Of a DNA stretch of 64,000 nt, positions 5,266 to 23,580 are shown piece after piece; the first letter of the stretch is position 1, and each line of letters opens with the position of its first letter. The translations under genes were made by a program, and so were the position numbers. The notes below the pieces were generated by a model. That model did no database searches, was not told where the DNA came from, and saw only the letters and a program-made list of their open reading frames with translations. The stretch is from Bryobacterales bacterium KBS 96 (lineage in GTDB: Bacteria > Acidobacteriota > Terriglobia > Bryobacterales > Bryobacteraceae): the NCBI GenBank assembly GCA_000381625.1, contig KB906767.1, forward strand, positions 3,429,304 through 3,493,303, in the 5' to 3' direction.

Positions 5266-7254
5266 GTGACCGAAGGGGCCACCGAGAAAGAAGCGCGCGT
5301 TCACATTCAGTCGTACTGGCGCTTCCGGGATCTTCTCGAAGCCGCCCCGGACGGCATCATCGAGGTGGAGCGCGATGGCACCATTGTGCTGTTAAACGCC
5401 GCCGCCGAGAAGATGTTCGGCTACCGGCGCGAAGAACTCCTCGGCCAGTTAATCGAGGTTCTCGTTCCGGGTTCCGTGCGAGGCCGCCATCATGAGCATC
5501 GGGATCACTACGCCGAACACCCCGTGACGCGGCCTATGGGCATCGGTCTCGAGTTGTTCGCTCAGTGCAAAGACGGTAGTCAATTTCCCGTCGAGATCAG
5601 CCTCAGCCCTATCCGCTCATCGCAGGGCTCGCGTGTCATTGCAATTGTGCGAGACATTACGACTCGCAAGCAGGCCGAAGCTAAAATCAACGCGATCCAC
5701 CAGCAGTTTGCGGCTGAACTTGCGGCCACCAATCAACAACTCGAAATTCGAAACCGCGAAGTCGAGCGCGCGAACCGGCTCAAGAATGAATTTCTCGCCA
5801 GTATGAGCCATGAGCTTCGGACGCCGCTCCATACGGTGATCGGATTCGCGGACCTGCTTGCCGAAGAGTTGAAGGGAACGTTAAATTCCGATCAGAGGAG
5901 ATTCGTCGGACACATCCAGCGGGATTCGCGCCATTTATTGGAATTGATTAACGACGTCCTTGACATCAGCAAAATCGAATCCGGGCGTCTCGAATTATAT
6001 CCCGAACTGTTTAACGCCGCTGGCGCCATCGCCGAGACCGTCGCTAGCCTTCGTCCTCTCGCTGAGAACAAGCAGATCCGAATCAACGAAGACTTTGACC
6101 GCCGTTTAGCCATTACCGCGGATCGGCTGCGCTTTAAAGAGATTCTTTACAATTTGATTAGCAACGCTATCAAGTTCACGCCGGATAAGGGCCAAATCAC
6201 CGTTGAAGGCCATGAGCAGCTCGAAACCATCGCCTTTGCCGTTACGGATACGGGTGTTGGCATCCATCCTGCGGAGCAAGAGGCGATTTTCGATAAGTTT
6301 TATCAACTCGGATCAACCACGCGAGGTGTCCGGGAAGGCACGGGCCTCGGTCTGGCAATCACCAAGAGTCTCGTCGAGATGCACGGAGGAAGGATTGAGT
6401 TGAAGAGCACGCCGGGCGAGGGAAGCCGATTTCAATTCTTCCTTCTCCGGAATGGACCGGAAATGCCGTCGCATCAGGCGGGAAACAAGAAGAGCGCCCG
6501 GTCGATCGTCTTACTAGGAGCCGGCAAAGAGCACGACCGGATCGTCGATTATCTGACGCAGAAAGGATACGAGGTGATCGACGCTCAAACCGTAAATCAA
6601 GCCCTCCGGTCTGGCCGAAGTGCGCGGCCAGCGGCAATCGTGCTCGACTTGACTGTGCTTGGATCAGCGAATTGGCAGACATTTCAGCGGCTTCGAGCGA
6701 AAAATGATATGACGCAAGTTCCAGCTCTTATATTGACCGCGGCGCAGGATAAAGGCATAGCCGTGTCGTTGGGGGCGAACGCCGCCGTTGTGAAGCCAGT
6801 CGATCCTGCGATGCTTCTCAAAATCTTGAAGAAAGAAGTGCTGCGCACGCCAGGCGAGCCCTCGCGCATATTAGTTGTGGACGATGCACAGGATACTCGC
6901 GAGCTTCTGGATGGAACGCTTCGCTCGGCAGGCTTTCTGCCGGTTCTCGCTTCTAATGGCGAGCAGGCTCTGGAGACACTGGCCCGAAGCCCGATTTCGG
7001 CGATTGTGGCCGATCTCATCATGCCGGGGATGAGCGGCTTGGAGCTGATTCTGCATATCCGCCAAAACTCCAGGTTTGCAAAAGTTCCCATCGTGGTCCT
7101 CACGGAAAAGGGAATGGACCAGGAGAATGAGCAGATTCTGAACCGTCAAGCCAACGCGCTGTTCTTGGAGGCGTTTCCCTGGAAGGAAGAGTTTCTGTCT
7201 AAAATCGAGGAACTTCTTGAAACTGCCATCGACAGGGATGCCGCACGGGCATGA
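5266..7254 (+). CDS. PAS-domain hybrid histidine kinase with two receiver domains
   Basis: Sensor kinase, 662 residues, starting with GTG behind an AGGAG site. Order: PAS (about 15-130, EAAPDGIIEVERDG, ending VRDITTRKQAEA), a short coiled linker, HisKA with H182 in MSHELRTPLH, HATPase (N-box NLISNAIKF, GTGLGLAI near 358), then two receiver-like domains. The first receiver (about 405-505) keeps LDL but lacks the acidic pair, so it looks inactive. The second (about 528-650) has VVDDAQD and VADLIMPGMSG but no clear KP lysine. No membrane segment, so a cytoplasmic signal is sensed. First gene of a three-gene operon; its stop overlaps the next start (ATGA). Confidence 0.92.
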   Translation: MTEGATEKEARVHIQSYWRFRDLLEAAPDGIIEVERDGTIVLLNAAAEKMFGYRREELLGQLIEVLVPGSVRGRHHEHRDHYAEHPVTRPMGIGLELFAQCKDGSQFPVEISLSPIRSSQGSRVIAIVRDITTRKQAEAKINAIHQQFAAELAATNQQLEIRNREVERANRLKNEFLASMSHELRTPLHTVIGFADLLAEELKGTLNSDQRRFVGHIQRDSRHLLELINDVLDISKIESGRLELYPELFNAAGAIAETVASLRPLAENKQIRINEDFDRRLAITADRLRFKEILYNLISNAIKFTPDKGQITVEGHEQLETIAFAVTDTGVGIHPAEQEAIFDKFYQLGSTTRGVREGTGLGLAITKSLVEMHGGRIELKSTPGEGSRFQFFLLRNGPEMPSHQAGNKKSARSIVLLGAGKEHDRIVDYLTQKGYEVIDAQTVNQALRSGRSARPAAIVLDLTVLGSANWQTFQRLRAKNDMTQVPALILTAAQDKGIAVSLGANAAVVKPVDPAMLLKILKKEVLRTPGEPSRILVVDDAQDTRELLDGTLRSAGFLPVLASNGEQALETLARSPISAIVADLIMPGMSGLELILHIRQNSRFAKVPIVVLTEKGMDQENEQILNRQANALFLEAFPWKEEFLSKIEELLETAIDRDAARA

Positions 7255-7625
7255 AACGCATTCTGGTTGCCGAGGACAGGCCTGGAAGCCTTGAGCTCAT
7301 CCGCACAGTTCTCGAAAGCGCTGGTTATGAGGTCATCGAAGCAACGGACGGGCAGGAAGCCGTGGAAAAAGCTTCTGGCAGTTCAGTGGACCTGTTTCTG
7401 CTTGATCTGCAGATGCCAAAAGTCGACGGTTTCGGAGTGGTGGCGCAGTTGCGAAAAGATCCCCGATTCGCGAGCACTCCGATTGTTGCATTAACCGCGA
7501 GCGCGATGCATGGCGACCGCGAACGAGCGCTCGCAGCCGGATTCTCATCCTATATAGCCAAACCGGTCGATCTAGCTGCCCTGCGCTCGGAGCTGAAGCG
7601 CCTGATCGGCGGAGGGCACCCCTGA
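7251..7625 (+). CDS. Single-domain response regulator (CheY/DivK-like)
   Basis: A 124-residue stand-alone receiver. The acidic pocket is E8-D9 (VAEDR), the phospho-acceptor D52 (LLDLQMPKVDG), the threonine LTAS and the lysine YIAKP near 103. There is no output domain, so it probably relays phosphate or acts by protein contact. Its ATG overlaps the stop of the hybrid kinase, implying translational coupling and a shared pathway. Confidence 0.9.
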   Translation: MKRILVAEDRPGSLELIRTVLESAGYEVIEATDGQEAVEKASGSSVDLFLLDLQMPKVDGFGVVAQLRKDPRFASTPIVALTASAMHGDRERALAAGFSSYIAKPVDLAALRSELKRLIGGGHP

Positions 7626-7662
7626 TGAAACGGGAGGGCGAACTGCTGAGACAGAGAACAAG

Positions 7663-9093
7663 ATGAACCCCAAACCACCGGAAGTTTCGAAGGTTTCATT
7701 GCTCATTGTTGACGATAACCCCGGGAGCCTGGATTTGTTAGCCACCGCTCTCGAGCAGCCAGACTTGGACATTTGGACCACCAACGATCCCGAAGAAGCC
7801 TTGGAAATTGTCTTCCAGAAGCATCCTCACATCGTGCTCACCGATTTGATTATGCCGAAGATAAGTGGCCTCGATTTGCTCGAGCGCATTGTCAACTTCG
7901 ACCCGGCGGTCGAAGTGCTTCTCATGACGGCGCATTATTCGACAGAATCCGCTGTAGAGGCAATCCGAAAAGGAGCCAGCGACTACTTAAACAAGCCCAT
8001 TTCGCTATCGGCGCTTCGCGACCGCCTTCGCGGCATGATCGAGAGCGTGCGTCATAGACAGCGTGCGTTCGAGTTGCAGGAGGAGTTGCGCGGCAGTGCT
8101 CAATTCGAGCACATCATCGGAAACAGTCCCGCGATGTGGGAGCTCTTTTCACGGATCCGCCGCATTGCTCCGCACTTTAGAACGGCTCTGATCACTGGGC
8201 CTACAGGCTCCGGGAAAGAACTGGTTGCGCAGGCGCTTCACCGGCTCAGTCCGGCATCCCCGGGGAATCTCGTCGTCGTGAATTGCTCGGCTTTAGTTGA
8301 AACACTTTTTGAAAGTGAGTTATTTGGTCACGTGAAGGGCTCGTTCACCGGCGCCACGCATGATAAGGTCGGCTTGGTGGAACACGCCAGTAATGGCGTT
8401 CTCTTTTTGGATGAGATCGGGGACATGCCCCTGAGCACGCAAGCCAAACTATTACGCACGATTCAGAATCAGGAAGTACAGCGGGTGGGATCGTTGCAGG
8501 CACGAAAAGTGAGTTTCCGCGTGATTGCTGCTACACACCGCGATCTCCGCGCCATGATTCGGGACGGGCGCTTTCGCGAGGACTTATACTATCGTCTTTC
8601 GATGGTGGAACTGCGAGTCCCGTCTCTCGCGGAACGGAAAGAGGACTTGCCGCTGTTGGCCAGGCATTTTGTTGAAAAGTTTTCAAAGCAATTCGATAAG
8701 CCGATCAGGGGAATGACGCAACGCGCCAGCATTGCGATCAGCCGGTACGAGTGGCCGGGAAATGTCCGCGAACTCGAGAATGCAATCGGCCACGCCTGCA
8801 TGATGGTTCTCAACGATATGATTGACGTGGCCGATTTGCCTGAATCTGTTCGGAGTCCCGAACACGTTCGAAGCGGATGTCAGCAGTCTGCATCCAGCAC
8901 TGCGATTGCGATCGCTTCGGAGAGTGACTCGCCGGCCTCGATGCTCGAAGACACTGAGAAGCGTATGATTGCCGATGCCTTAGCCAACGCTTCCGGGAAC
9001 CAGTCAGAAGCAGCCCGTCTTCTCCGCATTGGTAGAGATGCTCTGCGCTACAAAATGAAAAAGTACGGCCTTACGACTTTCATAGGCAACTGA
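7663..9093 (+). CDS. NtrC-family sigma-54-dependent response regulator
   Basis: Activator of 476 residues. Receiver domain with D17-D18, phospho-acceptor D61 (LTDLIMPKISG) and lysine NKP; AAA+ domain with Walker A GPTGSGKE (179-186), the sigma-54 contact loop GSFTGA (226-231, serine in place of the common alanine) and Walker B FLDEIGD; Fis-type helix-turn-helix at the C-terminus (NQSEAARLLRIGRDALRYKM). Third gene of the kinase operon, 37 bp after the receiver gene. It is the natural candidate to drive the sigma-54-like boxes found upstream of neighbouring genes. Confidence 0.94.
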   Translation: MNPKPPEVSKVSLLIVDDNPGSLDLLATALEQPDLDIWTTNDPEEALEIVFQKHPHIVLTDLIMPKISGLDLLERIVNFDPAVEVLLMTAHYSTESAVEAIRKGASDYLNKPISLSALRDRLRGMIESVRHRQRAFELQEELRGSAQFEHIIGNSPAMWELFSRIRRIAPHFRTALITGPTGSGKELVAQALHRLSPASPGNLVVVNCSALVETLFESELFGHVKGSFTGATHDKVGLVEHASNGVLFLDEIGDMPLSTQAKLLRTIQNQEVQRVGSLQARKVSFRVIAATHRDLRAMIRDGRFREDLYYRLSMVELRVPSLAERKEDLPLLARHFVEKFSKQFDKPIRGMTQRASIAISRYEWPGNVRELENAIGHACMMVLNDMIDVADLPESVRSPEHVRSGCQQSASSTAIAIASESDSPASMLEDTEKRMIADALANASGNQSEAARLLRIGRDALRYKMKKYGLTTFIGN

Positions 9094-9127
9094 ACATCAG
9101 AATTCTCCGCATCGTATTTTGCATGAC

Positions 9128-10069
9128 TCAACTGAGGCTATGCTCCTCCTTTTCTTTTTGAGAGATCGCTTGCGTTTCAGGATGAAGGGATACAGCCTCT
9201 CGGTCCGGTAGACAACTGAGAACGGGACAAGGCGCGTCGCGGATGATTTGGTAGGCGTGCGTACGCAAACGCCCAAACGTTTGTTGTGCTTTTCCTTGCC
9301 CGATGACAATCAGATCGGCGTCTTGATCGAGAGCGGCCTCCGATACTGCATTGGCAATTAGAGACGCTTTAATGCTCGCCGGGAATTCGGTTCCCGCTTC
9401 TCTTTGCAGCTTGGAGATCGCCACATGCGCCGAATCCATTAAATAGGCATGCAGGTCAAAATCGAAATACTTGCTGGGCCGTGTTTCGGCTTCAGGGACA
9501 GCGTGCGCTACATGGACTTTGGCTCCAAGCTCGCGCGCCAAAGCATCCGCGAAACGTAACAGAGGAATGGCTTCGTCCGTGGCGTCGACTGCGCAGATGA
9601 TCGTTCTAAAATCGCGCGGCTCGCGGGGCTTGGATCGCATCACCGTGTTTGTCCAGACCAGGCAGGTAGCGTCGTGGATCACTTTGGCGGCAACCGACCC
9701 CAACAGAAGTCCGCGGATTTTTCCCATGCCGCGCGTGCCCATCATGATCAGGTCGACGTCGTGCTCACTTGCCCAATTCGTAATATTCCAGGCTGGGCCG
9801 CCCTCAGCGAGGACGCGCTGGATGCGATTCTCCGGTAAGTTGAGTTGGTAATCTTTCAGCAACTGTTCTTCCGATGCCACAAAAGAACGGAGGCAATCTG
9901 CATTGATCAGCGAGGCTTCGCCCGCGCCATACCAGCTTGTTGGTATTTCAAACACATGCATCAATGTGACTCGCGACCCAAAGCGTCCCGCGAGCCACTC
10001 CACCTCCGGGTTCAGCCCCCGGCAATGGTCTGAAAAATCTACTGGAAAGAGAATGTGGTCGAATTTCAT
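9128..10069 (-). CDS. Tandem-domain universal stress protein
   Basis: Cytoplasmic protein of 313 residues with two UspA folds. The first (MKFDHILFPVDFSDH...) has a complete ATP-binding signature GTRGMGKIRGLLLGS; the second (RTIICAVDATDEA...VIGQGKAQQTFGRL) has lost the glycine-rich GS end, so only one nucleotide site may be active. The start MKFDHILF at 10069 is chosen over 12 extra upstream codons because it is where the family begins. Converges with the NtrC gene (34 bp apart). A near-perfect sigma-54-like box lies about 85-100 bp upstream. Confidence 0.9.
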   Translation of the reverse strand: MKFDHILFPVDFSDHCRGLNPEVEWLAGRFGSRVTLMHVFEIPTSWYGAGEASLINADCLRSFVASEEQLLKDYQLNLPENRIQRVLAEGGPAWNITNWASEHDVDLIMMGTRGMGKIRGLLLGSVAAKVIHDATCLVWTNTVMRSKPREPRDFRTIICAVDATDEAIPLLRFADALARELGAKVHVAHAVPEAETRPSKYFDFDLHAYLMDSAHVAISKLQREAGTEFPASIKASLIANAVSEAALDQDADLIVIGQGKAQQTFGRLRTHAYQIIRDAPCPVLSCLPDREAVSLHPETQAISQKEKEEHSLS

Positions 10070-10152
10070 CTGTGGCTCCGGTTGGTGTTTCGCTATTGGC
10101 GCCAATGATTTCCCTTAGCGCTTCATGCCGAATCTGGTACGCCTTGGTTATC

Positions 10153-10168
10153 GCAAGTCCCATGCCAA
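10153..10168 (-). promoter_or_regulatory. Sigma-54-like promoter box before the universal stress gene
   Basis: The minus strand reads TTGGCATGGGACTTGC, the best match in the window to TTGGCACG-N4-TTGC. The predicted start near 10141 leaves a leader of about 70 nt that carries the palindrome ATTGGCGCCAAT (10095-10106). Confidence 0.6.
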
Positions 10169-10238
10169 ATGGATCCGCTACAAAGAACAAGGTCGAACTC
10201 CGAGCGCTGCGCCACATAACGCGGCAACTTGCAAACAT

Positions 10239-10256
10239 CTGAGCGAAACCGCTCAG
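10239..10256 (-). terminator. Hairpin after the nitrate-reductase-like operon
   Basis: CTGAGCG-4 nt-CGCTCAG forms a perfect 7-bp stem some 45 bp after the last gene of the operon. No strong T-run follows, so termination may be weak. Confidence 0.4.
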
Positions 10257-10298
10257 GTGCTTACCGATTGGATGGCTCCTCGATCGAGTGGTTTGTTG

Positions 10299-10508
10299 CT
10301 ATCGCGCGCGGTCGAGCCGCTGCACGAACCGATACAATCCGGCCACCGCCACAAAGATTAGCCCGCTGCAGATGGCTCCCGGCAATGCCGCATCGGTGTG
10401 CCCGGCCAGGTAAGCATCGAGAGTCGCGGAAAGCAGCCAGATCTGCACCATCAGCAAAAGGATGAGCAGCGCCGCCACGCCATCGAGAGCTGTAGTTCTT
10501 CTCCGCAT
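10299..10508 (-). CDS. Small two-helix membrane protein of the nitrate-reductase-like cluster
   Basis: A 69-residue protein with two hydrophobic segments (about 9-31 and 43-63), basic ends and no cofactor motif. Its ATG lies one base after the end of the Rieske gene, so it is the last gene of the operon. It may be a small membrane subunit or assembly factor for the complex; small proteins of the DUF6755 type occur in similar places, but that assignment is from memory and unverified. Confidence 0.65.
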   Translation of the reverse strand: MRRRTTALDGVAALLILLLMVQIWLLSATLDAYLAGHTDAALPGAICSGLIFVAVAGLYRFVQRLDRAR

Positions 10509-10509
10509 T

Positions 10510-11037
10510 TCAACTTTCGAGTTTCCCGCTCATGCCAATCGCGATCAATTCCTGGCCTTTGCGTTCCAGAATGACATGGGGCAAGGCTCGAGTCGGAGGG
10601 CCTTGGATGACGGCTCCATCGCGAATGGAGAACCGGCCGTTATGGCATGGACAGATCAACTGATTATCTTCCCGGGAATAATAAACAGCGCACGACAGAT
10701 GCGTGCATTTCTGCGAGTAAGCGACGTAGTTGTCTTCACTTGTACGGACGAGCAGGCACTGCTCTTTCGGATTGGGATAACGGAACAGCTTCACGCCGCC
10801 TACCGGGATCTCGCCGATTCGCGCAATCTCTTGCCGCGGGAACGTCGAATCGCGGCGCATCCAGGATCGAAAGAGGATCCACACATTGCCGACGAACATT
10901 CCGAGACTCGTAAGCGTCAGGAATTTGATCAGCTGGCGGCGGCTGACGAATCGCTCTCGTTCCTGAAATATCGAAAACTCGTCTTTCCAGAGAGACTCAC
11001 GATTTCTGGCAGCCGGTTTATCGCCCGAATTGGCCAA
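10510..11037 (-). CDS. Rieske [2Fe-2S] protein with N-terminal membrane anchor
   Basis: Electron-transfer protein of 175 residues. An N-terminal SRRQLIKFLTLTSLG stretch looks like a Tat-type anchor (about 32-57). The Rieske cluster ligands are complete: C111-T-H113, then C129-P-C131-H132, with C116/C131 placed for the stabilising disulfide. TTG start at 11037 behind GGGAGGG, overlapping the end of the Fe-S gene by 20 bp. A Tat-anchored Rieske domain would face the periplasm, which is odd beside a catalytic subunit that lacks a signal peptide. Confidence 0.88.
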   Translation of the reverse strand: MANSGDKPAARNRESLWKDEFSIFQERERFVSRRQLIKFLTLTSLGMFVGNVWILFRSWMRRDSTFPRQEIARIGEIPVGGVKLFRYPNPKEQCLLVRTSEDNYVAYSQKCTHLSCAVYYSREDNQLICPCHNGRFSIRDGAVIQGPPTRALPHVILERKGQELIAIGMSGKLES

Positions 11038-11608
11038 GGTGTCCCTCCCACATGTAATCGACTACGTCAATGGAGACGGCATCCGTGCCGGGCGGGGTCA
11101 TCATATGCACGCGCGTTTTGACGTGCTGGTTTCCGAACACAAAGAGGTTTGTGGGTTCTTCACGCCGTTTCGCGATTTGCTCCGGTTTCACATAGCTGAG
11201 CGCCTGGCTGGGGCAGACGGTGGCGCACATGGGCCGTTTGCCGACCGAAGTGCGGTCGTAGCACATATCGCACTTCATCATTTGCTCGTATTCTGGGATG
11301 ATCTTCGGTATTCCAAAGGGACACGCCAGAACGCAATTCGAACAAGCAATGCAGCGCGGCTTCAATGCCGAGCGGACGACTCCATCTTCGCCCACTTTAA
11401 TGGCGTCTGCGGGACACACCATGGCGCAGGTGGGTTCCTCGCAATGCCAGCACACGTATGCAGCGGTGTTGGCTGTTTCATACCGGTCCAGGTAATCGAA
11501 GTTGATCATCGATACGCCGCGATGCGTCTCGCATTCTTCGCAAGCTTCCACACACGATTGACAACCGATGCAGCGCGACGGATCGACGTAAAATTCGTAG
11601 CCGAACAT
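11018..11608 (-). CDS. Ferredoxin-type subunit with four [4Fe-4S] sites
   Basis: Electron-transfer subunit of the DmsB/NrfC/NarH type, 196 residues. Four cysteine groups are visible: CIGCQSCVEAC, CWHCEEPTCAMVC, CIACSNCVLAC and CDMC...CATVC. The start MFGYEFYVDPSRC at 11608 overlaps the stop of the molybdopterin gene by one base (TAATG), and its end overlaps the Rieske gene, indicating tight coupling. It should pass electrons between the Rieske/cytochrome parts and the molybdenum subunit. Confidence 0.9.
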   Translation of the reverse strand: MFGYEFYVDPSRCIGCQSCVEACEECETHRGVSMINFDYLDRYETANTAAYVCWHCEEPTCAMVCPADAIKVGEDGVVRSALKPRCIACSNCVLACPFGIPKIIPEYEQMMKCDMCYDRTSVGKRPMCATVCPSQALSYVKPEQIAKRREEPTNLFVFGNQHVKTRVHMMTPPGTDAVSIDVVDYMWEGHLGQFGR

Positions 11609-13818
11609 TAAATTGACTCCTCCGAGAGAGAAGCTTTCTTGATGCAGCAAGCCGACACTTTGAATTCCGGAATCTTACTTCGCGGGTCGAGCGTCCGATG
11701 AGTCAGCCGGTTGGCGCTCCGTTTTCCGGGCCAGTGGTATGGAATGAATACGGTGTCCGGCCGTATCGTTTTTGTCACCAGCGCGCGCACGGTGACTTCC
11801 GAGCGGCGGGTCGTGAGGGTGACGGCGTCTCCATCCGCGATTCCATACTGTTGCGCGAGGCGCGGATGGATTTCAAGCAGCGGTTCGGGATAAATATCCA
11901 CCAGCCCTCCCAGGCGGCGGGTTTGCGTGCCGGAAAGATATTGACTGACGACGCGGCCCGTCGTGAGATAGACGGGGTATTGCTCGTCGACGGGGTCGCC
12001 GCTCTCCCGCCATTCAGTTGTGACGAACCGGCACTTGCCGTCAGGATGAAAGCTTTTCGCGCCGTCAAGCAAATGCGGCGTTCCCGGATGGTCGAGTGAC
12101 GGGCACGGCCAGAAAAGACCCATGTGTTCGTCCACGCGCTCGTAAGTGATGCCGTAATAGTCGGCGTGGCCGCCTCGTGACGCCTCGCGCAGTTCATCTA
12201 AAACTTCGCGAGAAGTCTGAAAGGGAAAGAACTTGGCCCGGTCCAGGCGCTTCGCCAGTTCGCACAATATCCAGGTATCCGTCCGTGCATTGGGCGGCGG
12301 ATCCACGGCTTTCTGGATGTGAATCACTCTCCCCTCCGTATTGCAACTCAAGCCTTCCTCCTCTTCTTGCAGGCTGCCGGCTAACACCACGTCCGCATGA
12401 TGCGCGGTTTCCGATAAGAAGAAATCGATCACTCCGAAGAACTCAAGTTTGTCGAGCGCCTCCCGCGTGTAGTTTGCATCGGGCAGAGAAACGAGAGGGT
12501 TGAAGCACATGGAGAGCAAAGCTTTGATTTCGCCGCGATGAATCGCCTCCATGATTTCTTCGGCGGTGTACCCCGGCTGCGGAAGTTCATCGGGAGAGAT
12601 GCCCCATACTCTAGCCACATGCTCTCGCGCCGCTGGATCGGTGAGCATTCGCTGCCCGGGCAACTGGTCGCACTTCTGCCCGTGTTCACGTCCGCCTTGG
12701 CCGTTGCCTTGGCCGGTGATCATCGCGCAACCGGAGCCCTCGTGCCCCAGATGGCCGGTCGCAAGAACCAGATTAATCACCGCCAGACAATTTTCCACTC
12801 CCTTCGACTGGTGCTCGATTCCGCGCGCATGCAGGGCGATTGCGTGTTCTGCTTTGGCAATCCAATGCGCCGCTTTCTCGATGGCGTCTGGCGGAACGCC
12901 TGTCTTTTCCGCAGCAGCTTGCGGATTCCATGCTTGCACGGACTCCTTCAGCGCCTCAAATCCGGTCGTGTGCTCCTCGATGAACTGCCGGTTTTCCAGT
13001 CCATCCCGCAAGATCACATGAAGCATGCCCATCAGCAAGGCAAGATCCGTCCCGGGACGCACCGGCAGAAAGAGATCCGCATTTCTCGCGATCGGATTGA
13101 GGCGCGGATCCGCGATGATCAGTTTGCCGCCGCGATCGCGGCAGCGCCAGACATAGTCGGTTGTAATCGGCGAGCAGTCGCCAATGTTCGAACCGATGAT
13201 AAACAGTACATCCGCTTTGGGAATGTCGCTCCACGGAATCGGACTGCGATCTACGCCGAAAGCAAGCTTGTACGCGACCCCGGCCGATACCATGCACAAG
13301 CGCCCGTTGTAATCGACATGGCGCGTACCGACTGCAAGGCGGGCAAATTTTCCAACCAGATACGATTTTTCCGTCGTGAGGGAAGCGCCGCCGTAAACAG
13401 CTACGGCGTCTTTGCCGTATTTCTCTTGAATTTCGCGAATGCGCCTGGCTGTGAATTGGAGTGCTTCGGCCCAATTCGCCTTGCGAAAACCAGCGCTATC
13501 CGGCGCTACCTTTTCGTCGCGCAGCAACGGATCGAGAAGGCGGTCCGGGTGGCTCCCTTGCAAATAGCGTTTCACGCCTTTGGGGCAGAGCTTGCCTTCG
13601 TTAAACGGAAACTCCTCCCAGGGCTCGAAACCAATCACGCGGTTCTCACGAACCTTTAGCTGGATGCCGCACTGTTGTCCGCAAAAACAGCAATGCGTCT
13701 TCACCAGTTTTTCCGCGGGGTTTCGCGATTCGTCGGACCAGCCTCCCGGAGGCGTGTTGTGCAGATGCGGTCCGAATCGTTCCAGAAGCTGTTCCGCGGA
13801 TGCTGGAGGCCTAGCCAC
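11608..13818 (-). CDS. Molybdopterin oxidoreductase, NarB/NasA/NapA-like nitrate reductase
   Basis: Catalytic subunit of 736 residues. The N-terminal [4Fe-4S] site is C43-x2-C46-x3-C50-x27-C78; the probable molybdenum ligand is C175 in NGRLCMVSAG, the arrangement of assimilatory and periplasmic nitrate reductases; GHLGHEGSGC, TGQGNGQGGREHGQ and the C-terminal molydopterin-dinucleotide domain (LTTGRVVSQYLSGTQTRR) follow. The start is set at GTG 13818, behind AAGGAGG and overlapping the previous stop; a longer frame extends upstream but is unlike the family. No Tat signal, so cytoplasmic. Nitrate is the likely substrate, given the fused NarK-like transporter; formate dehydrogenase-like activity cannot be excluded. 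Confidence 0.88.
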   Translation of the reverse strand: MARPPASAEQLLERFGPHLHNTPPGGWSDESRNPAEKLVKTHCCFCGQQCGIQLKVRENRVIGFEPWEEFPFNEGKLCPKGVKRYLQGSHPDRLLDPLLRDEKVAPDSAGFRKANWAEALQFTARRIREIQEKYGKDAVAVYGGASLTTEKSYLVGKFARLAVGTRHVDYNGRLCMVSAGVAYKLAFGVDRSPIPWSDIPKADVLFIIGSNIGDCSPITTDYVWRCRDRGGKLIIADPRLNPIARNADLFLPVRPGTDLALLMGMLHVILRDGLENRQFIEEHTTGFEALKESVQAWNPQAAAEKTGVPPDAIEKAAHWIAKAEHAIALHARGIEHQSKGVENCLAVINLVLATGHLGHEGSGCAMITGQGNGQGGREHGQKCDQLPGQRMLTDPAAREHVARVWGISPDELPQPGYTAEEIMEAIHRGEIKALLSMCFNPLVSLPDANYTREALDKLEFFGVIDFFLSETAHHADVVLAGSLQEEEEGLSCNTEGRVIHIQKAVDPPPNARTDTWILCELAKRLDRAKFFPFQTSREVLDELREASRGGHADYYGITYERVDEHMGLFWPCPSLDHPGTPHLLDGAKSFHPDGKCRFVTTEWRESGDPVDEQYPVYLTTGRVVSQYLSGTQTRRLGGLVDIYPEPLLEIHPRLAQQYGIADGDAVTLTTRRSEVTVRALVTKTIRPDTVFIPYHWPGKRSANRLTHRTLDPRSKIPEFKVSACCIKKASLSEESI

Positions 13819-16045
13819 GGCGCAATTCCTCCTTGATCCGAAGTTGTGCGCGCGAAAGAGTTTTCCGCTTGCAGGGCGGGCATAGCTCCTGCCAGTACCC
13901 GGCGGGTTCCGGCATGCTGTAATCAAACCCCAGTTGCGGCAAGGTGCGTTTCAAATCGTCAATCTGCATTCTCGAAGCAAACCGCCTGCCGCAGCGGGCG
14001 CAAGACGCGCCGTCATCGCGCTCTCCAGCTTGTTGATAGAGCTTTGCACCTAATTGAGCCGGACGCTGGAAGATATGGAAGAATTTCCCGAACGGGAGGT
14101 ACAGGAGAGCTGCAATCACGGTGATGGCATGCAGTATTGCGAGAAAACTATACAGGCTGCCACGCAGCCAAAACTGCGAAACCGTCAGTGCGAGGCCAGT
14201 CACTGAAATCGCGAAGAGCAGAATGATGGGGAAGAAATCGACGGAAAACGACTGCAATGTCTGCGCCCCAGTATCCCGCAGACGTCGCCACAAGGAAAGC
14301 ACGATCCCCGTGAGCACGAGCACTGCCGCAATATCGAGGCTGTGAAAGGAAAGCTCCGCCATGATGGAGTGCACGGGAAAGGAAGCAATTGCGAAACCGA
14401 ACACATGGGCCACATAGGTCATCTGGTTGTTCGCCGCCGAAGTGAAGGAAATCCATCCGAACACGAGTGGGAACGTAACGGCTGCAGCGAGAAGGCACCC
14501 CCAAAACAAAAACTGGTGCATCCACCAGCGCGGCGCCGACCGGCGGTGAATGAAGGTCTGCATCAGGATATTCGCGCCGAACAGAGAGGAAATGCTGGTG
14601 AAGCTGCGCCATAAGCCCTGCTCTCTTGCGATCTGCCAGCCCCGCTGCCAGAAGACGCGCGTCGGCGGCTTGTCGAGCCAAACCGTGTAGTGATACGCCA
14701 CGCCCCAAGTCGCGAAAATGACCGCGAATGTATAGATGACTAAGGCCGGATCGAAGTTCTCGAGGTTTCGCGATCCAGCCACAATCGCAGCGATTAAAAG
14801 TCCTGTCCAGACCGTTGCCCATACGGTGGCGCGCACCTGCGTCATCCGGCGGCTCTGCCTGACCGGCGCGGCCTCGACAACTGCACGATCCGCGGAGAGC
14901 AGCATACGCACATTCAGCCGCCATAGCAGAAACGCCGCGAAGGAGAGAAGAATGAAACCGGGCCAGACCACGCCGGCAGCATCGGAAAAGGCGCCGAGAA
15001 GCAGCGGAGGGAAGAATCCGCCCAGACCGCCAATCGCACCGACCAATCCAGTTACCGTGCCGGTATCTCTTGGGAAATACTGCGGGACTAGTTTGAATAT
15101 CGCGCCGTTTCCAACGCCCAACAACGCCGCGCAACCGAGAGCACCCGCCGTAAACGGAATAATCGATTGCCAGGCGAGTAGCAGAGAAAACGGGACAATG
15201 CCGAAGAAGACGACAGAGAGAACCTGTGCGCCGCCAATCCGGTCGGCCAGCCATCCGCCTACTGGCCGCAAAAGCGTCGCGAGCACAACAAATCCGGCGG
15301 TTCGCAATCCGGCGCTTGCCGCGTTCAAATGAAATTGATCCCGGAGGAGCGTCGGAAGATAAATCGAGAAGGCCACAAATCCGCCGAAGGTGAGTCCGTA
15401 AAAAGCGGACAGAACCCACGCAAGCCGTTCGCTGCGGACGACGCGCAACATTTCGTTAAGCCCCTGCGGACGCGGCACATTAGGAGAGTTTCTGGCAAAC
15501 AAAAAGAACACGACGGCCCATATCACCAGCAATGCGGATATGCCGCGAAAAATCGCCTGCCAGCCAAACGTGACGGCGAGAACCGGTCCCCCAAACACCA
15601 CTACCGATTGCCCGATGTTCCCGAGTCCGTAGACGCCTAACGCGGTCCCCTGCTTCTGTGGCGGATACCATCGCGAGACGAATCCGACGCCGACCGCGAA
15701 GGAAGAACCGGCCAGTCCCAGAAAAAAAGCCGCCGCAACCAGCATGTTGTAGCTGGATACGGAAGCGGCCCAAACCGGAGGAATGGCGGCGACGAGCATC
15801 AGCACTGTGAATACCACTCGCCCCCCGTACAGATCCGTGAGCATTCCAACCGGAATGCGCGCAAGAGCGCCGAGAATGACCGGCACGGATACGAGGAACG
15901 CCGTTTGCGTTGCGGTGAGATGCAGACTTCGGCGAAATTGTGGCGCGAACGAGCTGATCAGACCCCAAGCCGCAAAGCAGGCGACAAAGGACAAAGTTCC
16001 GAGCGAGAGTTGAACGGACGCGTTTCGAGTTTTCCCACCAGGCAT
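13811..16045 (-). CDS. NarK-like nitrate/nitrite transporter fused to NarI-like cytochrome b and zinc-ribbon tail
   Basis: Fusion protein of 744 residues, first gene of the operon. Residues 1 to about 395 form a 12-helix major-facilitator transporter of the NarK type (GLGNIGQSVVVFGGP, RPVGGWLADRIGG). Residues about 410-670 form a second membrane domain with five to six helices resembling the nitrate reductase gamma subunit: candidate haem ligands lie in WWMHQFLFWGC, AHVFGF, FHSLDIA and LHAITV, and it ends with LPFGKFFHIFQRP. The last 70 residues are soluble and hold CARC and CPPC pairs, a likely metal-binding tail. The protein links substrate uptake to electron supply. No internal stop or frameshift, so the fusion is real in this sequence. 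Confidence 0.87.
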   Translation of the reverse strand: MPGGKTRNASVQLSLGTLSFVACFAAWGLISSFAPQFRRSLHLTATQTAFLVSVPVILGALARIPVGMLTDLYGGRVVFTVLMLVAAIPPVWAASVSSYNMLVAAAFFLGLAGSSFAVGVGFVSRWYPPQKQGTALGVYGLGNIGQSVVVFGGPVLAVTFGWQAIFRGISALLVIWAVVFFLFARNSPNVPRPQGLNEMLRVVRSERLAWVLSAFYGLTFGGFVAFSIYLPTLLRDQFHLNAASAGLRTAGFVVLATLLRPVGGWLADRIGGAQVLSVVFFGIVPFSLLLAWQSIIPFTAGALGCAALLGVGNGAIFKLVPQYFPRDTGTVTGLVGAIGGLGGFFPPLLLGAFSDAAGVVWPGFILLSFAAFLLWRLNVRMLLSADRAVVEAAPVRQSRRMTQVRATVWATVWTGLLIAAIVAGSRNLENFDPALVIYTFAVIFATWGVAYHYTVWLDKPPTRVFWQRGWQIAREQGLWRSFTSISSLFGANILMQTFIHRRSAPRWWMHQFLFWGCLLAAAVTFPLVFGWISFTSAANNQMTYVAHVFGFAIASFPVHSIMAELSFHSLDIAAVLVLTGIVLSLWRRLRDTGAQTLQSFSVDFFPIILLFAISVTGLALTVSQFWLRGSLYSFLAILHAITVIAALLYLPFGKFFHIFQRPAQLGAKLYQQAGERDDGASCARCGRRFASRMQIDDLKRTLPQLGFDYSMPEPAGYWQELCPPCKRKTLSRAQLRIKEELRRG

Positions 16046-16242: not shown

Positions 16243-18003
16243 CTAGCTGCCACACTTTGGATATGGCTCAGTAAATTCGTAACGTGAGCGGACCGCCGCG
16301 CTCACTCTCGCGATGACGTCGGTGAGCTTGCCAGCGCGGTAGTCACTCTCGATACTCTGCATCATGTTCGCTAGCGGATAATCGCCAAAGACTCCCGAAA
16401 TCCAGTGAGAAAAATCGTGCCGGCGCAGATGGCCGTCCAGCGTTGACGCCTTTTCCTGTTCAGTGATCGCCACGAACTCGCGTAAGGTCCGTGCCCGGCG
16501 CCCGGTCGGCAAGCCGTTATTCCAGAACACAAAAGCTTGTCCTGCCGTCACCGGAATATCAATGTACTTCGCGAAATGGCGCACATGGGGCGTGAGACGG
16601 GGCGCTAGCCGGATCCGCCGCATTTGCCCTTCGGCTTCTTCAGTCATGGGAAGGGCAATCGCCTCGCCAATGACAAGCTTTCCGAAAAGCTGCTCCCACT
16701 GGGGTTCATTTGCACCTCGCTCACAGGAGTGGCACAGGGCAAGAAGCGCGCGAACTTCCTTAGGATCCGACTCCCGGGTCACTACGATGGCTTCGCTGGC
16801 CAATAGCACGTCATGGCGGAGTTCTGACGGTCGGTAGCTCACAAGAGTGTACCCGTTCAATTGCAGATCCAGCAGCTCAGGAACATTCGCATCGTGCAAA
16901 AAATAATGGGCTTCATCAACAATGATCCGGTGCGGCAGGCCCGTGGCGCGCCTGAGCTTCGCCAGAGACGGAAGGAGCGTGCGCAAATAATCCAGCTTTT
17001 CTTCGTGTGGAGTATGCGATAGATCGATGACTACACTCCCGTCCGGGTGGCGCAGCGCTCGCATAAGATCACGTGGCCGCGGCAGCGGATCTGCACCGCC
17101 AAACACAGTTACGCCAGGCAAAGCGTCTAAAGATGTGTAGTCGCCCTCGGGATCGATGATGCAAAGACAGTAACCGTAAAGGATCAGTTGCTCGCACAGC
17201 AACCCTGCTATCCACGACTTGCCTGATTTCGGATCGCCCGCAATGAGGACGTTCCGTCCGCGTACCGCGAGCGCAAGGGGCTGCCCGTCATCGGTATGAC
17301 CCAACAGAAGACGTCGGCGTGTCTTCTGCCTCATTGGGACCAAGCGTTGGTTGCCGAGATCTCGCATGTAGCCGGCGACGGCTATTGGGCCTTCTCCAGG
17401 CAGCACATAATCGGCAGAAGCTTTCAAGGCTTCACTGCCCCAAGCGACGGCGACACCTACTTCACAGGCCTGCAATAGCTCATGGTCGTTCTCCGCGTCT
17501 CCTACAGCTACCGCATTGTGAGGCGACAGACGCAGAATCTTGAGCGTCTCGCGCACGCCCGTCGACTTGCTAATAGTCTGCGGCAAAACCATGAGACGGC
17601 CACGATTGAACGCTAGCACCAGCGGCAACTCGAGACGGCGAAGTATTTCCAGCACTCGTGGGGCGTTAGCGGCGTCGGTATCGACAATGGTTTGCCCGGC
17701 CTTAAAAGAAATGCCTTCTCGTCGCAGCTCCTCGAGAAAACTCTGCGGGGCCGGCTTCGCAACAACCGTCGAATATCCACTTGCCGGAAAATCGATTACC
17801 GCTCCGTTTTCGGCGACGATACCATCTACGAAATGCAAGTCACCGGCCACGCGGCGCAACTCATCGAGAATGCGGCCCGTGACAATGAGTACGACGATGC
17901 CCTTCGCGCGAAGTTCGCTGATGGCCCCGCGCACGACGGGATCAAGAACGCCATCCCTGGCAATTGTGCCATCGTAATCGAGAGCGAGTACTGAGAATTT
18001 CAC
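16243..18003 (-). CDS. HAD-family phosphatase fused to a HerA/DUF87-like P-loop ATPase
   Basis: 586 residues. Residues 1-205 are a Cof-type HAD phosphatase: nucleophile motif LDYDGT (D9, D11), VTGR (motif II) and the acidic motif GDAENDHE (D169, D173). After a linker, residues about 230-420 form a P-loop ATPase with Walker A GDPKSGKS (256-263), CIIDPEGDYTSL and Walker B IIVDEAHYF, the pattern of HerA/FtsK-like ATPases. The remaining 150 residues are unassigned. GTG start behind AGGAGG. The combination is uncommon; a regulatory phosphatase controlled by an ATPase, or the reverse, is only a guess. A sigma-54-like box lies directly upstream. Confidence 0.82.
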   Translation of the reverse strand: MKFSVLALDYDGTIARDGVLDPVVRGAISELRAKGIVVLIVTGRILDELRRVAGDLHFVDGIVAENGAVIDFPASGYSTVVAKPAPQSFLEELRREGISFKAGQTIVDTDAANAPRVLEILRRLELPLVLAFNRGRLMVLPQTISKSTGVRETLKILRLSPHNAVAVGDAENDHELLQACEVGVAVAWGSEALKASADYVLPGEGPIAVAGYMRDLGNQRLVPMRQKTRRRLLLGHTDDGQPLALAVRGRNVLIAGDPKSGKSWIAGLLCEQLILYGYCLCIIDPEGDYTSLDALPGVTVFGGADPLPRPRDLMRALRHPDGSVVIDLSHTPHEEKLDYLRTLLPSLAKLRRATGLPHRIIVDEAHYFLHDANVPELLDLQLNGYTLVSYRPSELRHDVLLASEAIVVTRESDPKEVRALLALCHSCERGANEPQWEQLFGKLVIGEAIALPMTEEAEGQMRRIRLAPRLTPHVRHFAKYIDIPVTAGQAFVFWNNGLPTGRRARTLREFVAITEQEKASTLDGHLRRHDFSHWISGVFGDYPLANMMQSIESDYRAGKLTDVIARVSAAVRSRYEFTEPYPKCGS

Positions 18004-20753: not shown

Positions 20754-20787
20754 TGGCCGTGGAAATTTGGGCAGAGATGGCGGTTTG

Positions 20788-23577
20788 ATGGACCCACGGC
20801 ATTCCCGGCTGCACGAGGTGGTTAACCACGCGGCACACTTGCTTCCGATGCAGGGTCCCATCGGGGTCTTCATCCATCACAACACCCTGCACGCATTCCA
20901 GCATTTACGTTTCGAAGAAGCCGTGATCGAGGCCGCTCAGATCTTCGGCGCCGAACCCTATATGGCCGAAGTCGCGTACCGCGCCGAGCTCGCACGTGGC
21001 CGCATCCATCTGGAAGATATCGACGCGGTACTCAACAGCGAACCCGACGCGATCGTTTTTCCGCGCCTCAGCCGGCGCTCGCTGCGCCGAGCTATGATCA
21101 CGCCGGGCGTGCGAGAGTTCGACGCGGCTACCATTATGTGGCGCGCCGAACAGGGTGACTTGGCCGGAGATTTCCGCCAGCCGGCGCTGCATGCGCTGTT
21201 TAGCGCCTGTTTTACCCGTACTGTGGCGCATGAGCCGGAACCCGAGCCGGCGCGCCCCGTGGACGAAGTCATCCACCCATGGCTGATCCGGTTGTGCGCT
21301 GTGTTCCTGGATCAGGGCATCGCCTATTGGTCCATGCCTAACCGCGAGTTGGGATTCTATGAAGGCGTCCGGCTGCTGCTCTCGCAGCGTCTTGGCGTCT
21401 TCCCGCGATATCTGACCGGCTTGGATGAAGAGTTCCGGCGTCAGGCATGCCTCTCTTTTTCCGCATGCGACGCCGTGCTCGATTACCTCGATTCCCGGCA
21501 TTTCCGTGAAGGCGATTGGCATAAGATCCTGCAGACCGAGCTGCTCGCCTTGCCGGGTTGGGCGGGATTGATGCGGAGGCTAGAAGTGGACCCGAGACTC
21601 GCTCCTCACAAATCCCTGCCCTGTTCGCTGATGGACTTTCTGGCGGTTCGTTTGACCATGACCCGCGTCGCCTCGCAGAGGGGTGCGGCGGAACCCCATC
21701 CGCCGGAGAACCCGCTCAAGACGGAAGAAAGGCGCCGACTAAGCCGTACCGCCCGCGTGTACGATGCCGCTCGTGTTGTCTCGCTCTCCGCCGGCGAAGT
21801 AGAAATACTTTCGGATGACGAGTGGGCTGCATTCGTGAGCGAAGTGAAAGCCTGTAACGGCTGGGAGCGCCGCCGCATCCTCCACCTTGCCTATGAGCGT
21901 TGGCACGAACGCCAGGTCCTGGGCGGGTTGGCGAGCAATCGGAAGTATCGGGGCTTATCCGAAGTTCCATCAAGGCCTCCCGCGCAACTCTTCTTCTGCA
22001 TTGATGAGCGCGAGGAATCGATGCGTCGTGCGCTCGAAGAAGTAGATCCGGGCTTAGAGACGTTCAGTGCGGCTGGGTTCTATGGCGTAGCGGTGAACTA
22101 CAAGGGGATCGATGACCCACATGGGGCCGCGTTTTGCCCGGTGGCCGTGAAGCCTCGGCACACCGTTCTCGAGCGGCCGAAAGCGGAAGACAACGCATTG
22201 CACGAAAGGCGCCGCCTGCGCAGACGGCTGGTCGGATGGCTGATGCAGAATTGGTTTGTGTCATCGAGGACGCTCATGCGCGGCTGGCTCTCGACGGCCA
22301 CGCTTGGATTGTTGTCCTTGGTTCCGCTGATTGGTCAATTACTCGCGCCCAGGCGTTACGCCCAACTTCGTGAACGGCTGAATAAGGCGTTCCTGCCCGA
22401 GCCGCGGACAGAGTTGGCATTCATGCGGAACACCGTTCAATCGCAAGAGGCGGTTGCGGGGCTACTTCTCGGCTTCGCCGCTGAAGAAAAAGCTGCGATC
22501 GTGGCAGGCATTTTGGGGCCGGCTGGCTTAAAGCGCGGCTTCGCGCGCATTGTGGTTGTCCTCGGCCACGGATCAACAAGTCTGAACAACCCGCACGAAT
22601 CGGCGCACGATTGCGGAGCGTGCGGGGGACGCCGAGGCGGACCCAATGCGCGGCTCTTCGCAGCTATGGCGAACCGGCCCGAAGTGCGTCAGGCGCTGCG
22701 GCAGCAAAGCATCGAGATCCCGAACGATGTCTGGTTCATCGGCGGCTATCACGATAGTTGCAGCGATGACGTGGAACTATACGACGTCGATGCACTTCCC
22801 GCCACGCATCGAATCGATCTGGAGCGCGTTCGCGACTCGCTTGATAAGGCAAGAGCACGCAACGCGCAGGAACGGGCGCGCCGGTTTGAGCGGTGTCCTC
22901 CAAATGCTTCGCCCGCTACCGCCCTCGCTCACGTAGAAGAGCGCAGCGAACATCTTGCCGAGCCGCGGCCCGAGTATGGGCATTGCACGAACGCTTTTTG
23001 CGTGATCGGCAGGCGCAGCCTTACACGCGGGCTCTTTCTGGACAGGCGGTCATTTCTGGCTTCTTATGACGCGAATCAGGATACTGATGACCAGAGCCTG
23101 GCGCAGGTGCTGGCCGCCGTTGTGCCCGTCTGTGCAGGTATCAGTCTGGAATACTACTTCTCTTTTGTCGATAACTACCGCTACGGCTGCGGCACAAAAT
23201 TACCGCATAATATCACGGGCTTGGTGGGTGTGATGGACGGGCACGCGAGCGATTTGCGAACAGGATTGCCTTGGCAGATGGTTGAGATTCACGAGCCGGT
23301 GCGCGGGCTTTTTGCCGTTGAGACAACGCCGGAACGGCTTACAAAAGTCATCGATGCAAGCGCTGGGCTGCAAGAGTTGGTAAAAAACCGCTGGGTCCGT
23401 TTCGCAACCATCGATCCGGCATCGGGCCGCGTCCATGTCTGCAGAGACGCCGGCTTTGAGGAATTCAACGGGCCCGTGGAACGTCTGCCGGTGGCCTTCT
23501 CCTCTGCCGAGTGGTATCAAGGCAAGCTCGAACATCTCGCCATGTGTTGGATTGAAACGCAAGCGAAAGGCCTATAA
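20788..23577 (+). CDS. dabA: Inorganic-carbon transporter subunit DabA (DUF2309)
   Basis: 929 residues from ATG 20788; a TTG at 20767 could add seven. DabA is a membrane-associated, beta-carbonic-anhydrase-like subunit that hydrates CO2 in one direction, driven by an antiporter-like partner. The zinc/active-site residues known from Halothiobacillus are all present with matching spacing: C404 and D406 in FFCIDERE, H594 in GHGSTSLNN, and C609 in AHDCGACGG. A hydrophobic stretch (STATLGLLSLVPLIGQLLA) is also typical. Followed after 3 bp by the antiporter-like gene. Confidence 0.93.
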   Translation: MDPRHSRLHEVVNHAAHLLPMQGPIGVFIHHNTLHAFQHLRFEEAVIEAAQIFGAEPYMAEVAYRAELARGRIHLEDIDAVLNSEPDAIVFPRLSRRSLRRAMITPGVREFDAATIMWRAEQGDLAGDFRQPALHALFSACFTRTVAHEPEPEPARPVDEVIHPWLIRLCAVFLDQGIAYWSMPNRELGFYEGVRLLLSQRLGVFPRYLTGLDEEFRRQACLSFSACDAVLDYLDSRHFREGDWHKILQTELLALPGWAGLMRRLEVDPRLAPHKSLPCSLMDFLAVRLTMTRVASQRGAAEPHPPENPLKTEERRRLSRTARVYDAARVVSLSAGEVEILSDDEWAAFVSEVKACNGWERRRILHLAYERWHERQVLGGLASNRKYRGLSEVPSRPPAQLFFCIDEREESMRRALEEVDPGLETFSAAGFYGVAVNYKGIDDPHGAAFCPVAVKPRHTVLERPKAEDNALHERRRLRRRLVGWLMQNWFVSSRTLMRGWLSTATLGLLSLVPLIGQLLAPRRYAQLRERLNKAFLPEPRTELAFMRNTVQSQEAVAGLLLGFAAEEKAAIVAGILGPAGLKRGFARIVVVLGHGSTSLNNPHESAHDCGACGGRRGGPNARLFAAMANRPEVRQALRQQSIEIPNDVWFIGGYHDSCSDDVELYDVDALPATHRIDLERVRDSLDKARARNAQERARRFERCPPNASPATALAHVEERSEHLAEPRPEYGHCTNAFCVIGRRSLTRGLFLDRRSFLASYDANQDTDDQSLAQVLAAVVPVCAGISLEYYFSFVDNYRYGCGTKLPHNITGLVGVMDGHASDLRTGLPWQMVEIHEPVRGLFAVETTPERLTKVIDASAGLQELVKNRWVRFATIDPASGRVHVCRDAGFEEFNGPVERLPVAFSSAEWYQGKLEHLAMCWIETQAKGL

Positions 23578-23580
23578 ACA

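Follow-up and report, generated by a model that had tools for sequence, protein, structure and literature searches.

A conserved gene module that looks like a so far unnamed kind of membrane-bound nitrate reductase with its own importer

Introduction

How do bacteria use nitrate when no known enzyme for its reduction can be identified in them? Nitrate reduction is reported for Granulicella mallensis and strain KBS 96 in a study that, as excerpted, identified no dissimilatory nitrate reductase in them (PMC5900883), and among Acidobacteriota from Danish sludge, again as excerpted, nrfAH was found in 23 metagenome-assembled genomes (MAGs) and narGHI in 15 (PMC8100337). A 64,000-nucleotide stretch of Bryobacterales bacterium KBS 96 (contig KB906767.1, positions 3,429,304 to 3,493,303; hereafter "the window") bears on this question, as an earlier note made from its letters alone had pointed to a nitrate-reductase-like cluster of five genes. 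We find this cluster ("the module") to be a widespread conserved unit, which by its sequences looks like a so far unnamed kind of membrane-bound nitrate reductase with its own importer.

Results

Gene content and distribution of the module

The module runs along the minus strand from 16045 to 10299, its five genes overlapping or abutting in the order that the earlier note had given:

13811..16045, minus strand: NarK-type transporter of the major facilitator superfamily (MFS) fused to a NarI-like cytochrome b with a CxxC/CPxC tail, 744 aa (fusion called in 61 of the 80 named-genome loci described below)
14891..16045, minus strand: transporter domain of the fusion, residues 1-385 (PF07690; TIGR00886; Foldseek; NarK alignment)
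13811..14863, minus strand: cytochrome b domain of the fusion, residues 395-744 (candidate haem ligands His510, His568, His639 and His657)
13871..14002, minus strand: predicted cytoplasmic tail, C682xxC685 ... C722PxC725 (four Cys conserved)
11608..13818, minus strand: NasC-like molybdopterin subunit, about 736 aa (GTG start; profiles; tree)
13291..13308, minus strand: active-site motif NGRLCM, the Cys ligand followed by Met (alignment of module rows)
11018..11608, minus strand: DmsB/NarH-type ferredoxin with Cys for four [4Fe-4S] clusters (profiles; Cys conservation)
10510..11037, minus strand: Rieske protein with an N-terminal anchor (PF00355)
10924..10944, minus strand: SRRQLIK of the Rieske protein, resembling a twin-arginine translocation (Tat) motif (alignment)
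10299..10508, minus strand: DUF6755 small membrane protein, 69 aa, two hydrophobic stretches (PF20540; hydropathy)

The transporter-cytochrome fusion with its CxxC tail, the four-cluster ferredoxin, the Rieske protein and the small membrane protein, all named in the earlier note, are all present, the last matching Pfam PF20540 (DUF6755) at 49.8 bits for a cut-off of 27. The gene of the molybdenum (Mo) subunit probably starts at the GTG at 13818, which is preceded by AAGGAGG, the mechanical open reading frame start at 13926 being disfavoured, and the ferredoxin gene probably starts at the ATG at 11608 (its mechanical reading frame extends to 11650).

The module is a real, widespread and functionally coherent unit, whose genes occur together beyond chance. 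In a sample of 297 genomes from the window organism's phylum, the cytochrome b part was detected in 44, fused to the transporter in seven (the window's own among them) and unfused in the other 37, which indicates that the fusion is dispensable for the system. Genes for the Mo subunit, ferredoxin and Rieske protein accompanied it in 28 of the 30 phylum loci fetched; in one further locus (L042) the contig stops short, and the last (L034, 11211-13835, in genome G167) holds a fusion with no other module gene nearby and a tail out of frame after CPK, probably a remnant and still counted among the 44. Named genomes gave at least 592 matching stretches, 515 of which encode relatives. Among the best 80, which were analysed, 68 hold clustered cytochrome b, Mo, ferredoxin and Rieske genes (the same set thus recurs in other genomes, where the earlier note had proposed to seek it), and in the remaining 12 the contig ends too soon, within 2.3 kb on the downstream side in 11 of them and on the upstream side in L138, whose gene order looks permuted. 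DUF6755 gave a tblastn match in 62 of the 80 loci, and one locus is present in both sets (as L041 and L137).

By record title the module occurs in six phyla, namely Acidobacteriota, MAGs of four further phyla and Deinococcus plasmids, the titles of the named records reading Acidobacteria, Candidatus Obscuribacterales, Deltaproteobacteria and Myxococcota, Planctomycetota, and Armatimonadetes; since nearly all named records are MAGs, single non-acidobacterial rows could be misbinned. The source genome (6.69 Mb) has Bryobacteraceae MAGs (Acidobacteriota) as its nearest named relatives by the transporter-cytochrome gene, and module loci were also found in Granulicella MAGs. Four of 72,556 plasmid records match the cytochrome, all of them from Deinococcus, and the three inspected share the order cytochrome b, Mo subunit, ferredoxin, Rieske protein, DUF6755, transporter, with no fusion. 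The same genes stand in a permuted order in an Armatimonadota locus (L131), which L138 resembles. No relative was found in the viral contigs searched.

Two annotations deserve a separate word. The unfused Deinococcus cytochrome b (L165, L166, L167) is labelled "MFS transporter" in the plasmid records, a name probably transferred from the fusion. A seeming triple fusion of transporter, cytochrome and Mo subunit (L113, a 1483-residue frame) might have proved association but was set aside, as the frame crosses undetermined bases (X) at the junction.

A catalytic subunit of the NasC lineage

The earlier note had called the Mo subunit NarB/Nap-like, of which the nitrate-reductase type holds, while the closest NCBIfam model is NasC rather than NapA. 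Scores were 756 bits for NasC (equivalog NF047855, cut-off 1100), 582 for the formate dehydrogenase alpha subunit (TIGR01591, cut-off 666), 247 for the NapA equivalog (cut-off 904) and 44.8 for NarG (TIGR01580, cut-off 1084), none of them reaching its cut-off. The best NasC score lies between 751 and 906 in 42 of the 44 module genomes (G181 gave a partial match only, and G167 none that high). The NasC score exceeds the formate dehydrogenase score of the hidden Markov models (HMMs) by 174 bits in the window and by 199 to 239 bits in four further module proteins, against differences of -252 and -290 for two true formate dehydrogenases, a contrast that marks nearness to NasC and not activity.

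The active site points the same way. NGRLCM was kept in all 40 module rows aligned (taken from 108 available), and Met likewise follows the Cys in 12 of 13 other Nas/Nap-type rows (Thr in L169), whereas His follows the Cys or Sec position in nine of nine formate dehydrogenases. Phylogenetically, a first, sparse tree (53 rows) put the module beside three formate dehydrogenases, a grouping that the earlier note had named as a result that would speak against it. A second tree (46 rows, among them 24 module rows, with 16 further module rows left out, two NirB-linked NasC and nine formate dehydrogenases) united the module rows in one clade (100/99) that is sister to the NirB-linked NasC (100/100), with the nine formate dehydrogenases branching off next (100/98, the root being set at the midpoint). 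The adverse grouping is thus gone from the second tree, and the formate dehydrogenase reading, which had rested on matches in the Protein Data Bank (PDB) and the first tree, was dropped once the two NirB-linked NasC and more formate dehydrogenases had been added; both trees were built without Bacillus NasC and cyanobacterial NarB, and the second, rooted at the midpoint alone, contains several long reference branches. The phylogeny that the note had proposed thereby gives the subunit a nitrate-reductase-type placement.

These nearest tree relatives outside the module (L163 and L192) come from other acidobacterial genomes, stand beside NirB and NarK, and carry the motif NGRFCM.

Scanning 108 rows for an export signal on the Mo subunit yielded no plausible Tat motif (the two pattern hits both precede the likely start of the protein), and no signal peptide was seen in the window's protein read from the GTG at 13818. 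Computation thus supports a Mo subunit that is of nitrate-reductase type and cytoplasmic, and with the NarI-like cytochrome as anchor it agrees with the cytoplasmic, membrane-anchored enzyme that the earlier note had proposed.

A putative nitrate transporter joined to a NarI-like cytochrome b

The transporter domain matches PF07690 and scores 240.9 bits with the NarK model TIGR00886, below the cut-off of 311.7. In an AlphaFold2 model of the fusion (predicted local distance difference test score, pLDDT, 88.2; predicted template modelling score 0.84), the best Foldseek matches of the transporter half are NarK structures, and Arg63 and Arg260, kept in all 38 rows holding the domain, align with two arginines of Escherichia coli NarK that we take to be nitrate-binding. 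Judged by its predicted fold and these two arginines, the transporter part is of the NarK type and putatively carries nitrate, which fits the note's idea of uptake within the same polypeptide.

By sequence the cytochrome half resembles NarI weakly, and by predicted fold more clearly. It scores 22.5 bits with the NarI profile PF02665 (cut-off 22.9), and a search of the window organism's genome with that profile at E ≤ 0.001 returned no match. Modelled alone (pLDDT 90.1), it has no PDB match below E 0.001 in Foldseek, the best being EtfD at E 0.061. VIA-align placed it nearest to mycobacterial EtfD (Z 11.6 over 230 residues, root-mean-square deviation 4.5) and NarI (Z 10.5 over 174 residues, deviation 4.7), with the first unrelated row at Z 8.9, although a Z under about 13 can reflect an arrangement common in helical bundles and only in VIA-align, not in Foldseek, did EtfD and NarI stand out. 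EtfD transfers electrons from the electron transfer flavoprotein to menaquinone, and the likeness of the predicted fold to EtfD and NarI makes menaquinol a likely donor by analogy.

Across 58 aligned rows (chosen from 107 listed, plus the window), His510, His639 and His657 are invariant and His568 is kept in 54. His639 and His657 are 18 residues apart, as are His187 and His205 of NarI. Reading the helix pattern would place His510 and His657 on the inner side of the membrane, His568 and His639 on the outer side, and the four-Cys tail inside. All four tail cysteines (C682, C685, C722 and C725) are present in 58 of 58 rows, and we infer a zinc-ribbon or rubredoxin-like metal site.

A four-cluster ferredoxin and a probably periplasmic Rieske protein

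Each of the 17 cysteines of the ferredoxin is kept in 100 or 101 of 101 rows. The Rieske alignment (also 101 rows, i.e., the window and all 100 sequences passing the threshold) has the cluster ligands C111/H113 and C129/H132 as well as two extra cysteines, C116 and C131, in every row, and the twin Arg of the Tat-like motif ahead of the anchor in 100 rows, with one gap. In bc-type Rieske proteins the extra Cys pair forms a disulphide. The window's protein has the features of these exported proteins (cluster ligands, extra Cys pair, Tat-type anchor), and the Tat-like arginines together with the two extra cysteines suggest that it probably faces the periplasm. As the Mo subunit has no such motif, the membrane probably separates the Rieske centre from the Mo site.

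Ser and Tyr residues next to the cluster raise the potential of bc1 Rieske proteins. Here the motif reads CPCHNGRF; where high-potential forms have Ser and Tyr, it has Gly134 (101 of 101 rows) and Phe136 (100 of 101), and this replacement makes a Rieske potential lower than in bc1 likely.

Genomic context

The surroundings were surveyed in 113 rows with the cytochrome (1.87 Mb); as the neighbour families were chosen for recurring in these same loci, their counts are descriptive. A gene for RIC/ScdA, a protein of nitric oxide repair, lies in the stretch of 32 rows and an NnrS-like gene in 20 (26.2 bits, just below the Pfam cut-off of 28). At genome level, RIC was found in 41 of the 44 module genomes and in 10 of 36 genomes without the module, and with 51 of these 80 genomes carrying RIC, mostly in one copy, fewer than one such neighbour is estimated by chance. 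NrfA (E ≤ 1e-40) was present in 28 of 44 module genomes vs. 5 of 36 others, NarG above its cut-off in 10 vs. 1, and NapA in 2 vs. 2; both NarG and NapA are absent from 18 of the 28 module genomes that bear NrfA. In four genomes (G051, G063, G038 and G181) an NrfA gene stands close to the module and shares its orientation, and none of the other module loci searched contains one. In genus g37, 14 of 16 genomes have NrfA, and 11 of those 14 have no NIR_SIR match at all.

The window organism's NirB lies about 2.8 Mb from the module, at a separate locus (L157, G000:C1:598000-617900) where, at 8434-14632, NirB stands beside a DmsB-DmsC fusion and a Mo subunit of the Nas type. By its sequence it would be another nitrate reductase with a membrane-type donor beside a nitrite reductase, and the same arrangement is seen in L194.

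A gene for a SLAC1-family anion channel is found near the module in 12 of the 113 rows (L047, L049, L050, L055-L059, L062, L109, L132 and L135), 11 of which have no fused transporter; this channel may replace NarK as a path for nitrate or nitrite.

Discussion

Comparison with known systems

With Nar (NarGHI and NarK) the module shares a predicted cytoplasmic Mo subunit, a four-cluster ferredoxin and a NarK-type transporter, and its cytochrome resembles NarI weakly by sequence and better by predicted fold. Unlike Nar, its Mo subunit belongs to the NasC clade, it has an extra Rieske protein and DUF6755, its five contiguous genes (the only ones considered here) include no NarJ, and in one large branch its transporter is fused to the cytochrome. 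The closest Mo relatives are those of Nas (Bacillus-type NasC and Paracoccus NasBGC). As excerpted, PMC3475470 describes the Rieske protein NasG as carrying electrons to NasC in Paracoccus, and reports that in Bacillus bataviensis nasC is linked to the genes of a hybrid cluster protein and of a further Rieske-type protein; this linkage of nasC to a Rieske-type gene is the nearest precedent we met. Unlike Nas, the module has no NirB and possesses a cytochrome b and a four-cluster ferredoxin, and its Rieske protein differs from that of Nas by the anchor, the Tat-like motif and the extra Cys pair, a comparison that leaves the Bacillus Rieske aside.

Nap differs in having an exported Mo subunit. 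Haloarchaeal Nar, which has a Rieske partner, shares the idea of a nitrate reductase coupled to a quinol-oxidising cytochrome b, there a bc1-type protein (NarC). Its Mo subunit is of NarG type and its NarC bc1-like in the excerpted text of PMC8301774, unlike the NasC-type Mo subunit and NarI-like cytochrome of the module. Arsenite oxidase (AioAB) also pairs a Mo subunit with a Rieske protein, AioB being among the PDB matches of the module Rieske; AioAB is not known to have a ferredoxin or cytochrome b subunit, and unlike in AioAB the module's Mo subunit would stay cytoplasmic. As the earlier note had held for Nar, Nap and classic Nas, the full definition of none of these families fits, and the module would work like Nar while built on a catalytic subunit of the NasC lineage.

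Proposed mechanism and its alternatives

The reading that we consider fairly probable is a respiratory-type, membrane-bound nitrate reductase facing the cytoplasm, with a NasC-clade Mo subunit in place of NarG and electron entry through Rieske and b-haem centres on the periplasmic side. Electrons from menaquinol or a periplasmic carrier would enter on that side via the Rieske centre and/or the outer b haem. Two b haems in the NarI-like cytochrome would take them across the membrane, and the ferredoxin, with its four [4Fe-4S] clusters, would pass them on by way of the FS0 cluster to the Cys-ligated Mo, which would reduce nitrate to nitrite in the cytoplasm; energy would be conserved by this inward flow of electrons. 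Import of nitrate would fall to the NarK part, possibly in exchange for nitrite, which would go to NrfA outside, yielding ammonium, or to NirB inside. The earlier note appears largely right, its quinol feed through a Rieske centre being one possible form of this path. In the window organism the nitrite could go to NirB at its separate locus.

Several observations weigh against this proposal. The fold matches of the cytochrome have middling Z scores, and the proposed haem ligand His568 is N or D in 4 of the 58 rows. Four other Nas/Nap-type proteins score 35 to 115 bits better with the formate dehydrogenase model than with NasC, hence the limit set above on the HMM contrast. The 36 comparison genomes (the listed unmatched ones and the lowest unmatched handles) are not matched to the module genomes for kinship or genome size, the Fisher tests on these contrasts take no account of kinship, and once genus g37 is removed the NrfA contrast falls to 14 of 28 vs. 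5 of 36. Fifty named genomes (38 with the fusion; completeness unstated) were tested for NrfA and only 8 gave a full-length match, and a search of the window organism's genome found no NrfA. Nor did the window's 64 kb contain a match to RIC or NnrS (the organism's own RIC is at 4.71 Mb), and a scan of the window for FNR-type boxes gave 25 matches for 22.8 expected, none just upstream of the operon.

The main rival concerns the entry of electrons. The same enzyme might not oxidise quinol directly, its periplasmic Rieske protein being fed by a bc chain, an alternative complex III chain or cytochrome c and passing electrons inward. The probable position of the Rieske protein on the periplasmic side would suit this, and the excerpted text of PMC7931247 gives a parallel in Streptomyces Nar1, which requires a bcc-aa3 supercomplex that contains QcrA and also co-purifies with it. 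However, the NarI/EtfD likeness suggests direct contact with quinol, and the five-gene module itself includes no c-type cytochrome gene, so we hold this route to be possible but doubtful. Rather unlikely, in our judgement, is an assimilatory nitrate reductase drawing on membrane electrons instead of NADH or soluble ferredoxin, with cytoplasmic nitrite passed to NirB for biosynthesis. The NirB-linked NasC are indeed the nearest Mo relatives, the window organism has NirB and lacks NrfA, and NarK-type transporters serve assimilation loci too; yet the window's module holds no nitrite reductase gene, a separate NirB-Nas locus is retained in the same genome, most g37 genomes combine NrfA with a lack of any NIR_SIR match (14/16 and 11/14, as given above), and genes of nitric oxide stress are frequent among the neighbours.

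That same frequency of RIC and NnrS-like neighbours could instead speak for a system running in reverse as a nitrite oxidase, or serving mainly as a nitrosative-stress or redox sink, and an acceptor centre on the periplasmic side would suit outward electron flow. NrfA, which adjoins the module in 4 genomes and occurs in 28 of the 44 module genomes, points to nitrite consumption, and we regard such a reverse or sink role as very improbable. Least probable of all is that the Mo subunit belongs to a formate dehydrogenase or another Mo oxidoreductase: formate dehydrogenases are its best PDB sequence matches, its neighbours in the sparse tree and the next group out in the second, but its active site reads Cys-Met rather than Cys-His, its sister group is the NirB-linked NasC, and its operon begins with a NarK-type fusion.

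Possible regulators and other features near the module

CRP-type regulators occur in 28 of the 113 rows, a count that is weak evidence since distant CRP proteins also match. In the window, 5266-9093 encodes a PAS sensor kinase, a single-domain receiver and a sigma-54 response regulator (sensor and receiver named by reading), with a two-domain universal stress protein between them; kinase, receiver and regulator are possible candidates for regulating the module. Elsewhere in the window, 16243-18003 combines an HAD-type phosphatase and a HerA/DUF87-like ATPase stretch in one protein, and 20767-26288 encodes a 936-aa protein followed by two membrane proteins, which on reading recall the DabA/DabB bicarbonate-uptake pair.

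Significance

A rooted survey of the dimethyl sulphoxide reductase family states, in the excerpted text, that no member of the clade of NasA/NasC, AioA, NapA and cytoplasmic formate dehydrogenases has a canonical four-cluster ferredoxin or membrane anchor (PMC7331816), a statement to which the module would be a counter-example. We recognised no description of the module in the open-access literature searched, although an earlier one is possible in subscription journals and preprints, which mostly lie outside it, and "DUF6755" is named in no paper of that literature. We lean slightly towards adding this module to Nar and Nap as one more class of respiratory nitrate reductase, in which the NasC lineage would have independently gained a ferredoxin of the complex iron-sulfur molybdoenzyme type, a NarI-like anchor and periplasmic entry through a Rieske protein, would have spread across several phyla, acquiring in one large branch a fusion to its own transporter, and would fill the place of the missing nitrate reductase in many Acidobacteriota with NrfA. 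Marker surveys that count narG and napA alone would miss this module, which could explain nitrate use in bacteria without an identified enzyme for it.

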